Shown piece after piece: positions 4,502 to 25,950 of a stretch of DNA of 64,000 nt (position 1 is the first letter of the stretch; every line of letters starts with the position of its first letter). The notes under the pieces are model-generated. The model was not told the DNA's origin and did not search any database. It saw nothing but the letters and a program-made list of their open reading frames with translations. A program made the translations under genes and the position numbers. The stretch is from Pseudomonas sp. W4I3 (lineage in GTDB: Bacteria; Pseudomonadota; Gammaproteobacteria; Pseudomonadales; Pseudomonadaceae), in the NCBI RefSeq assembly GCF_030816195.1, contig NZ_JAUSXS010000001.1:1139501-1203500 (forward strand), in the 5' to 3' direction.

Positions 4502-5395
4502 ATGGAATTACGTCACCTGCGCTACTTCATCGCCGTCGCCGAAGAGCTGCATTTCGGCCGCGCCGCGCAAGTACTGGGGATTTCGCAACCGCCGTTGAGC
4601 CAGCAGATTCAAGCGCTGGAACAGGAACTGGGCGCGCGGTTATTCGAGCGTACTAATCGTCGGGTCGAGTTGAGTGAGGCGGGGCGCCTGTTCCTGAACG
4701 AAGCGCGCCTGGTGCTGGCCCAGGTCGATAAAGCGGCGGACGTCGCTCGGCGGGCGCAGATGGGAGAACTGGGAGAGCTGAAGATCGGCTTTACCTCGTC
4801 GGCGCCGTTCACCGCCAGCATCCCGCAGGCGATCTTTGCGTTTCGCCAGGCGTTTGCGGCCGTGCATTTGAGCCTGCAGGAGATGAGCAGCACCCAAGTC
4901 GCCGAATCTTTGGTGGATGAGACAATCCAGGTCGGGTTCATGCGGCCATTGCCGTTGCCGGACTCCCTCAGTGTGATCGAGCTGATGCGCGAGCCGTTGG
5001 TGGCGGTATTGAGCGCCGGGCATCCGCTGGCGCAAGGTAGCGAGCGCGGTTTGCACCTGGCGCAGTTGGCTGAGGAACCCTTTGTATTCTTCCCGCGCAG
5101 TTATGGTAGCGGCCTCTATGCGCAATTGCTCAACCTGGCCCGCGACGCCGGCTTCAGCCCGCGCTTTTCCCAGGAAGCGGGTGAAGCGATGACCATCATC
5201 GGCCTGGTGGCGGCGGGGCTGGGGGTGTCAGTGCTGCCCGCTTCCTATCAGCGTATCCGCATCGACGGCGTGGTGTACCGCACCTTGCTGGACCCGGAGG
5301 CGGTAACGGCGGTATGGCTGGTGCAGCGCAAAGGCCCGCAGTCGCCCATGGCGCAGGCGTTTGTGGAACTGCTGACACGTAAGGCTTCTGTGTAA
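4502..5395 (+). CDS. LysR-family transcriptional regulator
   Basis: A 297-residue protein of normal LysR length. The N-terminal winged helix-turn-helix spans about residues 1-60 (MELRHLRYFIAVAEELHFGR, then AAQVLGISQPPLSQQIQALE), followed by the linker helix and a periplasmic-binding-protein-like effector domain (about residues 90-290). It is transcribed away from the MFS gene and probably controls it and itself from the gap between them. The effector is unknown. The E. coli parallel is YnfL beside YnfM. Confidence 0.9.
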   Translation: MELRHLRYFIAVAEELHFGRAAQVLGISQPPLSQQIQALEQELGARLFERTNRRVELSEAGRLFLNEARLVLAQVDKAADVARRAQMGELGELKIGFTSSAPFTASIPQAIFAFRQAFAAVHLSLQEMSSTQVAESLVDETIQVGFMRPLPLPDSLSVIELMREPLVAVLSAGHPLAQGSERGLHLAQLAEEPFVFFPRSYGSGLYAQLLNLARDAGFSPRFSQEAGEAMTIIGLVAAGLGVSVLPASYQRIRIDGVVYRTLLDPEAVTAVWLVQRKGPQSPMAQAFVELLTRKASV

Positions 5396-23089: not shown

Positions 23090-23860
23090 ATGCGGCGCGT
23101 GGTGTTCAATCAGAAAGGCGGCGTGGGCAAGTCCAGCATCGCCTGCAACCTGGCGGCGGTCAGCGCCAGCGAAGGCTATCGAACCCTGTTGGTGGACCTC
23201 GATGCACAGGCCAACTCCACCCAGTACCTCACCGGGCTGACCGGCGACGATATTCCCATGGGAATCGCCGATTTTTTCAAGCAAACCCTGTCTTCCGGGC
23301 CGTTTTCGAAGAAGAACAAGGTGGATATCTACGAGACGCCGTTCGACAACCTGCACGTCATCACCGCCACGCAGGAACTGGCGGACCTGCAGCCCAAGCT
23401 TGAGGCCAAGCACAAGATCAACAAGCTGCGAAAGCTGTTGGATGAGTTGAGCGAGGATTACGACCGGATTTACCTGGATACGCCGCCGGCCCTGAATTTC
23501 TATGCGGTTTCCGCGCTGATTGCCGCTGATCGCGTGCTGATTCCCTTCGACTGCGACAGCTTCTCGCGCCAGGCCCTGTATGGCCTGTTGGCCGAAATCG
23601 AAGAATTGAAGGATGACCATAACGAAGGCCTGGAAGTGGAAGGTATCGTGGTCAACCAGTTCCAGGCCCGGGCGAGCCTGCCGCAGCAGATCCTGGATGA
23701 ATTGATTGCCGAAGGCTTGCCGGTATTGCCGGTGTACCTGGCCAGCTCCGTGCGCATGCGCGAGTCGCACCAGGAGAGCAAGCCGCTGATCCATCTGGAC
23801 CCACGGCATAAGCTGACGCTGCAGTTTGTGGAACTGCATAACCTGCTGGAAAGTGCCTGA
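23090..23860 (+). CDS. Orphan ParA-family ATPase
   Basis: A 256-residue P-loop ATPase of the ParA/MinD group. The deviant Walker A is FNQKGGVGKSSIACNLAAVS at the N-terminus, with DLDAQANSTQYL (switch I) and IYLDTPPALNFYAVSAL (Walker B) following. The ATG at 23090 has ACGGAGG six bases upstream; a longer frame adds 15 unlike residues. There is no parB or centromere-like repeat nearby, so it is not a chromosome or plasmid partition operon. Its cargo is unknown. Confidence 0.88.
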   Translation: MRRVVFNQKGGVGKSSIACNLAAVSASEGYRTLLVDLDAQANSTQYLTGLTGDDIPMGIADFFKQTLSSGPFSKKNKVDIYETPFDNLHVITATQELADLQPKLEAKHKINKLRKLLDELSEDYDRIYLDTPPALNFYAVSALIAADRVLIPFDCDSFSRQALYGLLAEIEELKDDHNEGLEVEGIVVNQFQARASLPQQILDELIAEGLPVLPVYLASSVRMRESHQESKPLIHLDPRHKLTLQFVELHNLLESA

Positions 23861-23881
23861 CCTCAAGCACTGCACAGATCC

Positions 23882-23974
23882 AATGTGGGAGGGGGCTTGC
23901 CCCCGATAGCAGTGTGTCAGCTACAGATAAGCTGGCTGACATACCGCAATCGGGAGCAAGCCCCCTCCCACATT
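23882..23974. repeat. REP pair (REPIN), GTGGGAGGGGGCTTGC type
   Basis: Complete arms AATGTGGGAGGGGGCTTGCC and the complementary GCAAGCCCCCTCCCACATT with a 50-bp spacer, 21 bp after the parA stop. Confidence 0.93.
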
Positions 23975-24011
23975 TTTTTGGATTGCATTCCAGCTGGGTT
24001 TCTGGGACTTG

Positions 24012-24030
24012 TCCTACGCAGTCTGTAGGA
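24012..24030. repeat. Short inverted repeat
   Basis: TCCTAC and GTAGGA flank seven bases (GCAGTCT). The right half continues GTAGGAGCGG, like the edge of a GTAGGAGCGAGC-type REP. Probably a decayed single REP. Confidence 0.4.
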
Positions 24031-24142
24031 GCGGTCTGGCAGCAGGGGATTGGCCTTGTAACCTTGCCTACAGCTACGCCAGAATCCGCCGGCTTGTGCG
24101 TCTGGATGGGCGTCTCTAAGGTTTGCCGGTCGCTGAATGTTC

Positions 24143-24340
24143 AGTGATCGGGTTTAGTAGCCCTAACGACCAAAGTATTTGTACCGCTTCAACAGCATGG
24201 CGTTTACCGCCTACCTGATGGTGGCTGTATGCAGGGCACCTTCGGGTGCGCCGGTCTTTGCTTTGTTCCCCGGTCTACTAACCTGCGTACAGCTGCCACC
24301 CTTCGTTTAGTAGCGAAGTGGTAGCAGCCCTATCAGGGAA
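24143..24340 (+). ncRNA. Candidate structured RNA or leader with twin TTTAGTAG hairpins
   Basis: No intact gene fits here, but the plus strand folds strongly. GGG-TTTAGTAG-CCC lies at 24150-24163 and CTTCG-TTTAGTAG-CGAAG at 24301-24318: two hairpins with the same 8-base loop. Between them a 16-bp stem (GGTGGC..TGTATGCAGG with CCTGCGTACA..GCCACC, 24220-24300) encloses a GCACC-TTCG-GGTGC tetraloop hairpin (24236-24249) and a GC stem (CCGG/CCGG). The single-stranded CTACTAA at 24275-24281 is complementary to both loops, so loop-loop pairing is possible. A CCCT-ATC-AGGG hairpin at 24328-24338 contains the ribosome site of the small gene remnant that follows. It may be a cis-regulatory leader or an sRNA. 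Confidence 0.5.
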
Positions 24341-24343
24341 CAA

Positions 24344-24469
24344 ATGCATGTCTATCAGTCTTTTCAATGTGGCACCCAACCTCCCTACCGAAACCCTCGT
24401 GCTCAACAGCTTGGCGTCATGCTGGTCAGCCAGATGATGGACCGCCAAGCCCCACTGGCCCAAGGCTAA
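24344..24469 (+). pseudogene. Remnant of a small protein gene downstream of the structured leader
   Basis: Two frames each hold part of what looks like one small protein. From ATG 24348 the frame reads SLFNVAPNLPTETLVLNS then stops early. From ATG 24344 the other frame ends with QLGVMLVSQMMDRQAPLAQG and a TAA at 24467. Together they resemble the start and end of the short Pseudomonas proteins I know as DUF6124/DUF3077-type, with the middle lost and a frameshift. AGGGA lies just before the start codons. A genuine 41-residue product from 24344 cannot be excluded. Confidence 0.4.
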
Positions 24470-24478
24470 AACGCGGTC

Positions 24479-24573
24479 AAATGTGGGAGGGGGCTTGCTC
24501 CCGATGGCGGTGTGTCAGTCCTGTACTTGGCAACTGATCCACTGCTATCGGGGGCAAGCCCCCTCCCACATGG
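24479..24573. repeat. REP pair (REPIN), GTGGGAGGGGGCTTGC type
   Basis: Arms AAATGTGGGAGGGGGCTTGC and GCAAGCCCCCTCCCACAT with a spacer of about 50 bp, between the small gene remnant and the end of trxC. It may shield the 3' end of the trxC mRNA. Confidence 0.93.
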
Positions 24574-24597
24574 TTTGGTGTTGTTCTGATGGGCCGG

Positions 24598-25032
24598 TTA
24601 CACGCCTTGGCTGCGCAACCAGCTCATCAACTGCGGCAACGGAAACGCCCCGCTCTGGCGCGCCACTTCGCGGCCATTCTTGAACAGGATCAAGCTGGGA
24701 ATCGAGCGAATCCCCAATTGCGCCGACAGCTGTTGATTAGCCTCGCTGTCGAGCTTGGCCAGCCGGCACTTGCCTTCCAACTGCCCGGCGGCCTGCTCGA
24801 ATACCGGCGCAAACGACTTGCACGGCCCACACCAATCCGCCCACACATCCACCAGCAACGGCAGGTCGCCCTTGATCTGGCTGGCGTAGTCGCCTTGTTT
24901 CAATTCAAAGGGCTTATTCAACAACACAGGCTGCTTGCAGCGCCCACATTTCGGCGCATCGCCCAGGCGTTCGCCGGGGATGCGGTTGAGAGCGTTGCAA
25001 TGAGGGCAGGGGATTACGAGAGGTTCAGACAT
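24598..25032 (-). CDS. trxC: Thioredoxin 2 (zinc-binding thioredoxin)
   Basis: A 144-residue thioredoxin with the active site WADWCGPCKSFAPVFEQ (about residues 64-80) and the N-terminal zinc site of the TrxC subgroup: two CxxC pairs, CPHC (residues 9-12) and CGRC (about 29-32). It reduces protein disulfides in the cytoplasm and is usually induced by oxidative stress. The ATG at 25032 has GGAGG upstream (GGAGCCTCCGATG). A longer upstream frame is not thioredoxin-like. It stands alone, divergent from the toxin-antitoxin pair. Confidence 0.94.
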   Translation of the reverse strand: MSEPLVIPCPHCNALNRIPGERLGDAPKCGRCKQPVLLNKPFELKQGDYASQIKGDLPLLVDVWADWCGPCKSFAPVFEQAAGQLEGKCRLAKLDSEANQQLSAQLGIRSIPSLILFKNGREVARQSGAFPLPQLMSWLRSQGV

Positions 25033-25189
25033 CGGAGGCTCCTGGGGACTGGCCAATAGATGGTATCTGGTGGCGGGGCTGAGATTTATCAAGGCTGGGT
25101 GCAGAGACTCATTCGCTCACATTTTTGCCGGCGCCCCGGTGAGTCGGCTGTCTAGGCTATTTCGTGTGCGCCACTGGTCTGTTTGCGGC

Positions 25190-25255: not shown

Positions 25256-25552
25256 ATGCGAGTCATCAGTGAAAGCAGGATCTGGGAAGCAAAGGGAAAA
25301 TGGCCGCGCTCGGCAACAGCTTTGGATCAGTGGTATCGCGTGATCAAACGCAACGCTCCCAAGGACTTCGCTGCAATGAAAGCCATGTTTCCCGCCACGG
25401 ATAAGGTAGGTGAATTTCATGTATTTGATATTGGCGGTAACAAGCTGAGGTTGATTGCGTCGGTGCAGTATCGAATGCAGCGCGTTTACATCAAGCACCT
25501 GCTTGACCATCGCGATTATGAGAAGGACAAATGGAAGGAAAAAATCAGATGA
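25256..25552 (+). CDS. higB: HigB-type mRNA interferase toxin
   Basis: A 98-residue basic protein of the HigB (PF09907-like) family: MRVISESRIWEAKGKWPRSA, the KVGEFHVFDIGGNKLRLIAS core strands, and a C-terminal VYIKHLLDHRDYEKDKWKEK helix with the conserved His and Asp/Tyr. Such toxins cut mRNA at the ribosome. The ATG has AAGGA six bases upstream. Toxin precedes antitoxin, as is usual in HigBA pairs, and the genes overlap by 4 bp. Confidence 0.9.
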   Translation: MRVISESRIWEAKGKWPRSATALDQWYRVIKRNAPKDFAAMKAMFPATDKVGEFHVFDIGGNKLRLIASVQYRMQRVYIKHLLDHRDYEKDKWKEKIR

Positions 25553-25950
25553 GCGCGCTTATGCGAGTAGCGGCAGAGCATTGGGAGTTCGTTGCGCCTG
25601 TGCTGTGCAAGCCGCAAAACGAGGCAGACTACGACGCACTGGTCTGCGGTTTGGATGAGCTGTTGAGCCTGGTGGGCGATGACGAAGACAGTCCGCTGAT
25701 GAGCCTGGTCGATATTTTCAGCGACTGGATCGAAGCCTACGACCGTGAACATCGTCCAATGCCAGTGGCCAGCGGTGTCGATGTGCTGCGCTACATGATG
25801 CGCGAGCACAATCTCACTCAGAGCGACCTTCCGGGGGTTGGGGCGCAATCAGTCGTCTCTGAGATATTGAGCGGAAAACGCCAGCTTAACGTGCGCCAAA
25901 TTCGGTGGTTGGCCGAGCGCTTTGGGGTCTCCGTGGAGACCTTTATCTAA
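25549..25950 (+). CDS. higA: HigA-type antitoxin with helix-turn-helix
   Basis: A 133-residue protein with an acidic N-terminal region (DALVCGLDELLSLVGDDEDS) and a C-terminal Cro/CI-type helix-turn-helix (LRYMMREHNLTQSDLPGVGA, SVVSEILSGKRQLNVRQIRW, residues about 78-120). It should neutralise the toxin and repress the operon through the palindromes at 25190 and 25229. The ATG at 25549 overlaps the toxin stop as ATGA. Confidence 0.9.
   Translation: MSALMRVAAEHWEFVAPVLCKPQNEADYDALVCGLDELLSLVGDDEDSPLMSLVDIFSDWIEAYDREHRPMPVASGVDVLRYMMREHNLTQSDLPGVGAQSVVSEILSGKRQLNVRQIRWLAERFGVSVETFI

Follow-up and report, generated by a model that had tools for sequence, protein, structure and literature searches.

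A C4 antisense RNA with complementary sites on both sides, upstream of a damaged DUF6124 gene in Pseudomonas

The locus studied here lies in a 64,000-nucleotide stretch of DNA from Pseudomonas sp. W4I3 (the stretch is hereafter called the window; positions are counted from its first letter). Two hairpins at this locus present the same loop, TTTAGTAG, on unrelated stems, with a single complement, CTACTAA, between them, which raises the question of what kind of RNA carries such an arrangement and on what it acts. An earlier note, made from the sequence alone, had taken the locus for a structured RNA of an undescribed kind, and all of the sequence pieces that it named were found where it had placed them. 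We hold with considerable confidence that the locus is a C4 segment with complementary target sites before and after it, which likely shuts off translation of its own downstream DUF6124 gene.

C4 antisense RNA and target sites at the locus

Using a covariance model, we identified positions 24214-24303 (forward strand) as a C4 antisense RNA (Rfam RF01695), with a score of 74.3 bits against a gathering score of 45 (E = 1.2e-12) and a match that spans model positions 1-87, the full length. The fold of positions 24128-24360 had a z-score of -5.66, with none of 200 shuffled sequences folding as well, and because of this fold and the C4 model match the structure at the locus is beyond chance. The earlier note was thus right about a structured RNA but not about its novelty, since the element belongs to a known Rfam family and the available text of PMC2864571 lists both the C4 antisense RNA and the c4-a1b1 motif in 2010.

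All of the C4 parts are present on the forward strand, namely the closing stem, the tetraloop hairpin, the b hairpin and the a loop. The closing stem (24219-24298, with 24219-24235 pairing with 24282-24298) comprises 17 pairs in the Rfam structure; the central stem and TTCG hairpin reported previously therefore exist, but with 17 rather than 16 pairs. Within it lie the UUCG hairpin (24236-24249), the b hairpin (CCGG, 24251-24273) with loop b at 24255-24269, and antisense core a, CTACTAA (24275-24281). A GGT at 24220 (forward strand) fits the GGW processing motif described for the P1/P7 C4 RNAs in the available part of PMC5320573, and would be compatible with an RNase P cut to an RNA of about 77 nt.

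Core a matches, over 7 nt each, the loops of the a1 target hairpin GGG-TTTAGTAG-CCC (24150-24163, loop 24153-24160), which precedes the C4 segment, and of the a2 target hairpin CTTCG-TTTAGTAG-CGAAG (24301-24318, loop 24306-24313), which follows it, both on the forward strand. The suggestion that one loop on two stems plus one complement implies two mutually exclusive partners holds in this form, the two hairpins being the a1 and a2 targets and CTACTAA being loop a of the C4 RNA. The earlier note had overlooked that the C4 RNA has another antisense loop, b, whose target lies at the ribosome site. Antisense core b, TTTGTTCCC (24262-24270), forms a 9-nt Watson-Crick match to the b2 target GGGAACAAA (24336-24344, forward strand), a stretch that includes the probable ribosome site of the reading frame downstream. 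In accordance with C4 membership, b' is complementary to the ribosome site and a' to sequence just upstream of that site. The pattern TTAGTAG-N12..42-GGAACAAA has a sole exact match in the genome, the locus's own b2 target, and this exact two-half search (both halves in order) returned no other own-genome target for the C4 RNA. Plain co-folding brought no energetic gain for the C4 RNA with either of its two targets (+2.3 and +3.2 kcal/mol) under a model that cannot form loop-loop contacts.

Upstream of the C4 segment, positions 24116-24168 (forward strand) resemble the c4-a1b1 motif (RF03163), with 36.5 bits, below the gathering score of 46.7, and we refer to this region as a1b1-like only. A first leader hairpin (24128-24149) precedes the a1 hairpin, and a probable b1 segment, CCAAAG (24170-24175, forward strand), is weak here, with a 5-nt match to loop b that reaches up to 11 nt in relatives. 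A promoter is predicted at 24094-24122 on the same strand (TTGTGC at 24094-24099, 17 nt, TAAGGT at 24117-24122). A TTG exactly 22 nt before the a1b1 start, accompanied by TAnnnT, recurs at 12 of the 15 loci with an a1b1 match in this genome, the background frequency of TTG being 0.017; a general promoter scan of 23600-25000 gave 0 sites.

Orthologous sites and the downstream gene

A search of the parA-trxC segment (window positions 23700-25036) against 398 genomes of the genus yielded 30 loci, our own included, and one more (L067) was added from another search. Among these 31 sites, 22 (own included) carry the C4 module and nine do not, although contig ends truncate two of these nine. Loop a and the two TTTAGTAG sites do not vary across the 22 sites, and hence offer no test of the covariation between loop and CTACTAA that the earlier note had envisaged. 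Loop b occurs in 12 forms in the same sites and co-varies with the respective ribosome sites, as in the pairs TTTGTTCCC/GGGAACAAA, TTTCGTTC/GAACGAAA and CGTCTCC/GGAGACG. The mean duplex energy between b and its own ribosome site was -13.7 kcal/mol versus -9.9 kcal/mol for swapped combinations, and the longest exact run was 7.2 versus 4.8 (0 of 50,000 permutations for either measure). The probable b1 segment upstream co-varies with the 12 forms of loop b too, with 0 of 50,000 permutations when scored by energy and 40 of 50,000 when scored by run length.

An undescribed cis switch, ligand-sensing or dimerising, as first proposed for this locus, was ruled out after the C4 match at 74.3 bits, and we regard it as extremely improbable. 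Alternative loop contacts do exist, but the score lies far above the C4 cut-off, the covariation between b and the ribosome site is what an antisense RNA predicts, and a complement that serves as antisense loop in a C4 RNA calls for neither a ligand nor a dimer.

The antisense reading also agrees with the conservation of the stems. Paired cells across the 22 sites amounted to 216 of 220 in the first leader hairpin, 343 of 352 in the closing stem (a count that leaves out row A24218-C24299, outside the Rfam stem), 110 of 110 in the UUCG hairpin, 88 of 88 in the b hairpin, 66 of 66 in the a1 hairpin and 82 of 105 in the a2 hairpin, where the outer pairs are loose. Two standard pair types differing on both sides were seen at 3 of 10 pairs in the first hairpin, 1 of 17 in the closing stem, 2 of 5 in the UUCG hairpin and 3 of 5 in the a2 hairpin (strictly counted against the commonest pair: 1, 1, 2 and 2 two-sided changes, respectively), and at none in the b (0/4) and a1 (0/3) hairpins. 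Compensatory changes, which the earlier note proposed to look for, are found in four of the stems. The note's last hairpin, CCCT-ATC-AGGG, is present at 24328-24338, but was ruled out as a conserved part, with 56 of 88 cells paired and no two-sided change in its four pairs.

The small reading frame reported behind this hairpin (24348-24437, forward strand) exists as well, but is a broken DUF6124 gene. What is left is a remnant of 29 codons plus stop whose frame is lost at a deletion, and its 16 bits against PF19619 fall below the threshold of 27 for membership of that family. The 3' end of the gene lies in another frame at 24404-24469 (forward strand), where it reads QQLGVMLVSQMMDRQAPLAQG plus stop. 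An orthologue (L110) encodes 74 aa in one frame, with 90.4 bits against PF19619. The only gap between our sequence and this orthologue spans 103 bp, a length not divisible by three, the DNA having been lost in our gene. Eighteen of the 21 relatives with the module encode the DUF6124 domain in one stop-free frame over at least 60 of 74 residues; in one of these 18 (L100) the start sits in another frame, the gene of L101 has an internal stop, and that of L067 is cut short, so that the gene is damaged in 4 of 22 orthologous loci, our own included. Loci with a damaged gene still retain the RNA parts. Because its gene is broken, the switch at the studied locus is probably a relic, though one whose main pairings survive.

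A decaying repeat with no present function at this locus, a reading compatible with our explanation for the family, is somewhat unlikely. The gene is truncated, the a1b1 score is low, and a DUF6124-like frame elsewhere in the genome (L008) is also interrupted by a stop, but neither the a address nor the 9-nt match between b and the ribosome site has been lost, and compensatory changes occur across the orthologous sites.

The DUF6124 protein is predicted to form a two-helix hairpin (mean pLDDT 83.4, pTM 0.62). Comparison of the model with PDB structures gave 192 matches, none with E ≤ 0.001 (best 0.99), the listed ones looking like generic helical hairpins, and a search of the PDB by sequence returned two matches only (E 0.97); the fold was dropped as a clue to function. 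It does bear on whether DUF6124 proteins might be toxins of type I toxin-antitoxin systems, each held in check by the neighbouring C4 RNA as antitoxin. Such systems would fit the many chromosomal copies in which an antisense RNA accompanies a small protein, and the damage to the gene in 4 of 22 orthologous loci. However, type I toxins are usually short hydrophobic peptides, unlike the modelled two-helix hairpin, and the C4 RNA lies upstream on the same strand rather than antisense to the gene. We consider this alternative distinctly unlikely and retain the C4 RNA as a probable repressor of translation.

The C4 locus is flanked by REP-type inverted pairs at 23882-23974 and 24481-24571, with arms of 39-40 nt that are 87-90% complementary. 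The two pairs are mutually 85% complementary over 93 nt, and 24481-24571 gave sub-threshold matches to miRNA families. Beside the thioredoxin gene, a probable higBA pair occupies positions 25256-25950: an ORF for a HigB-like toxin (PF09907, 82 bits) and, behind it, an ORF whose helix-turn-helix match (19 bits) stays below the cut-off of 23.

Addresses, spread and cargo genes

The genome of strain W4I3 holds 18 C4 RNAs, 14 DUF6124 matches and four DUF3077 matches, two of the latter overlapping DUF6124 ones. Among 99 sampled genomes of the genus, the covariance model detected C4 in 92 (median 13, at least 39 in eight genomes), which provides the homologues that the earlier note had looked to, and DUF6124 occurred in 78, never without C4. 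The per-genome counts of the two correlate with a Spearman coefficient of 0.89 (99 genomes, eight of them entered at at least 39 C4). Within a sample from the wider order, C4 was found in 7 of 55 other genomes, at most six in each. In five complete genomes, 99 of 142 C4 RNAs (139 above the family cut-off, three below) are followed on the same strand, at -1 to 240 nt, by a DUF6124 or DUF3077 gene, and 99 of 114 such genes are preceded by C4, against a chance expectation of about 0.001 per C4 or less. The earlier note's mention of similar leaders before DUF6124/DUF3077-type genes in other pseudomonads is borne out by these numbers.

We compared the addresses of the 17 of 18 own loci with a parsable hairpin (the segment of L018, mis-cut, was kept) and of the 29 loci with a parsable hairpin among 35 fetched from a second genome, G010, whose 36th C4 match (35.6 bits, partial) lay outside this test. 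Segments a and b fit their own upstream and downstream flanks better than foreign ones, and none of 20,000 permutations did as well in any of eight tests. In our genome 15 of 17 targets, and in G010 27 of 29, were fitted best, ties included, by their own C4 (strictly best: 14 and 24). Both halves matched over at least 6 nt in 13 of 17 own pairs here and 24 of 29 there, versus 0.74% and 2.34% of foreign pairs. An a address may be common to several loci, and from the match rates of own and foreign pairs cross-talk is predicted to be low, not nil, with incomplete insulation. Coarser comparisons gave a less clear picture. By single longest runs (with segment a of L011 read by eye and L017 lacking a clear a1b1), the own site was best or tied for 11-14 of 18 and strictly best for 4-9 of 18, and in every case 0 of 100,000 permutations reached the own mean. 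By energy over longer segments, a measure diluted by constant flanking bases, the own downstream target ranked first for 4 of 18 C4 RNAs and the own upstream target for 12 of 18. Because most comparable C4 RNAs fit their own target best or equally well, most of them are likely to act as separate private switches.

Among the remaining 43 C4 RNAs of the five complete genomes, 39 lie outside our genome and were sorted by eye: 19 precede an unnamed family of 86-118 aa, eight a Bro-N-like protein, one a QslA-like frame and one a short DUF6124-like start, and ten have no clear frame. The unnamed family, recognisable by ..IDTxAPLxxL..RIRAV..LRDGCDVLDV.. (L191-L196, L198-L200, L202-L206, L209, L215 and L224-L226, and L017 in our genome, where the frames are split), gave no Pfam match above cut-off (six members tested) and no PHROG match (three tested), and profile comparison shows no relation to DUF6124. 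The Bro-N antirepressor-like genes (L190, L197, L201, L211, L212, L214, L216 and L219, the untyped ones judged by eye) score 37-40 bits against PF02498 (L197, L201 and L212 tested) and have the anti-repressor Ant as their best PHROG match (4.5e-11 and 1.4e-11; L197 and L212 tested). Because the Bro-N protein of L197 begins with MIKVTPNPP, like DUF6124 proteins, the sequences suggest a swap of cargo behind a fixed start.

In our genome, four C4 RNAs lack a full DUF6124 or DUF3077 match: that of the studied locus, L017, L008 and L004. L008 has a damaged DUF6124-like frame with a GTG start and a stop after 52 codons, followed by the rest of the domain in frame. L004 precedes a frame with a QslA (LasR antiactivator) domain (33 bits, above cut-off), with a short overlapping leader frame, read by eye, between the two; the QslA-like frame behind L208 scores 14 bits, below cut-off (130 aa examined). 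Tandem C4 modules occur in genome G018 (for example C1:5381989-5382766, 1238017-1239101 and 1612756-1613858), which suggests local duplication as a spreading route.

Phage record EU982300 (L229) carries, at 4745-5231, a C4 match of 78.7 bits and a DUF6124-like Orf1 beside the prophage repressor gene prtR, at the record edge. Ten IMG/VR viral contigs (L231-L240) carry the C4 pattern, all six that were scanned with the covariance model matching C4; a DUF6124-like frame follows C4 in at least six of the ten by eye (L233 confirmed in Pfam), and prophage edges may include host DNA. Contig L236 also has an isrK match above cut-off, and its 214-aa frame behind C4 had no PHROG or Pfam match in the parts examined. 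A search with one further viral-contig pattern gave no matches.

Such records fit an alternative in which the target silenced by a chromosomal C4 RNA is a matching site on an invading phage or plasmid and not its own gene, chiefly where no intact gene follows. Our locus, with a broken gene and its main pairings kept, would suit this role, and according to the available part of PMC5320573 the P1/P7 C4 RNA acts in superinfection immunity, while two roles are put forward there for the C4-like RNAs of Acinetobacter baumannii, one of them the targeting of phages that enter the cell. We nevertheless judge trans-acting immunity to be unlikely: most C4 RNAs in the five complete genomes (99/142) stand directly upstream of a DUF6124 or DUF3077 gene, our genome offers no other exact two-half target, and b changes together with its own ribosome site across orthologues, something that action in trans alone would not call for.

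Proposed mechanism and known systems

For the preferred reading, in which each C4 RNA shuts off its own gene, we propose that one transcript from the TTG-N17-TAnnnT promoter (about 24094-24122) would carry a1b1, C4, a2b2 and the gene. Loop b would pair with the ribosome site at 24336-24344 and loop a with the a2 hairpin at 24306-24313, leaving no ribosome start. The a1b1 region, bearing the same address, would compete for C4, pairing of C4 with a1b1 and with a2b2 being mutually exclusive. Repression of P1 ant works through blocked translation and Rho. The C4 RNA would likely be cut out, as the available text of PMC5320573 reports for P1/P7, or act in place. We infer this mechanism, in which C4 covers the ribosome site and a1b1 competes, by analogy with P1/P7 and IsrK. 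In Salmonella, isrK RNA activates translation of the antirepressor-like anrP in trans about 140-fold (PMC4825925, in its available part, which has no mention of 'C4 antisense'), and the equation of isrK with a1b1 is likewise an analogy on our part. A separate isrK-like a1b1 transcript ended by a terminator is not supported as a general rule, terminator-like sites between a1b1 and C4 being found at just 2 of 15 own loci and 4 of 35 loci of G010.

The RNA class is known, and the interesting part is the wider self-addressed set; the studied locus alone, a C4 module with a damaged gene, is modest. In the literature searched, mostly without subscription papers and supplements, we found no description of a genus-wide, self-addressed set of Pseudomonas C4 RNAs with matched genes and no mention of DUF6124, and DUF3077 was hardly mentioned. 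Tentatively, Pseudomonas chromosomes might have captured private antisense switches from phage immunity in large numbers, often 10 to 40 of them in one genome. Their two-part address would be written three times (in C4, a1b1 and a2b2) and diversified so that dozens of near-identical RNAs coexist with little cross-talk, and their cargo would have moved from phage antirepressors to small helical DUF6124/DUF3077 proteins, maybe host-encoded antirepressors or antiactivators. The set suggests that an RNA of phage immunity has become widespread in a bacterial genus and been turned into many self-addressed switches. It provides a regulatory RNA and a testable mechanism for a very common, little-studied gene family, DUF6124/DUF3077, and its dozens of parallel antisense pairs per genome form a natural set for reading the rules of RNA-RNA specificity.

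Several known systems share parts of this arrangement. The c4-a1b1 motif (RF03163; available text of PMC2864571) has the same position, hairpins and a1 loop upstream of C4, whereas the studied locus scores below its gathering score and 5 of 15 own-genome matches pass it. The isrK-orf45-anrP arrangement of Salmonella Gifsy-1 (RF01394; available text of PMC4825925) likewise combines an upstream RNA, a complementary stretch and a ribosome site in one transcript, with an antirepressor-like gene downstream; however, our locus scores 16.9 bits against the isrK model, below the cut-off of 50, and no terminator-like site was found in it between a1b1 and C4. The C4 RNA of P1/P7, from the immI operon c4-icd-ant, has the same fold, UUCG hairpin and loops a' and b', with b' acting on the ribosome site and a' giving specificity (PMC5320573 and PMC8198154, as far as their available text goes). 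Unlike it, the Pseudomonas set is chromosomal and multi-copy, with cargo that is mostly DUF6124/DUF3077 rather than icd/ant, and at the studied locus a DUF6124 remnant stands in place of a P1-type immI antirepressor gene (ant). The C4-like Group 1 sRNAs of A. baumannii, in the available part of PMC5320573, similarly comprise many C4-fold RNAs per chromosome, and their a' loops vary; their targets in bacteria are a matter of conjecture there, whereas most Pseudomonas C4 RNAs lie directly before a matched gene, mostly of one family.
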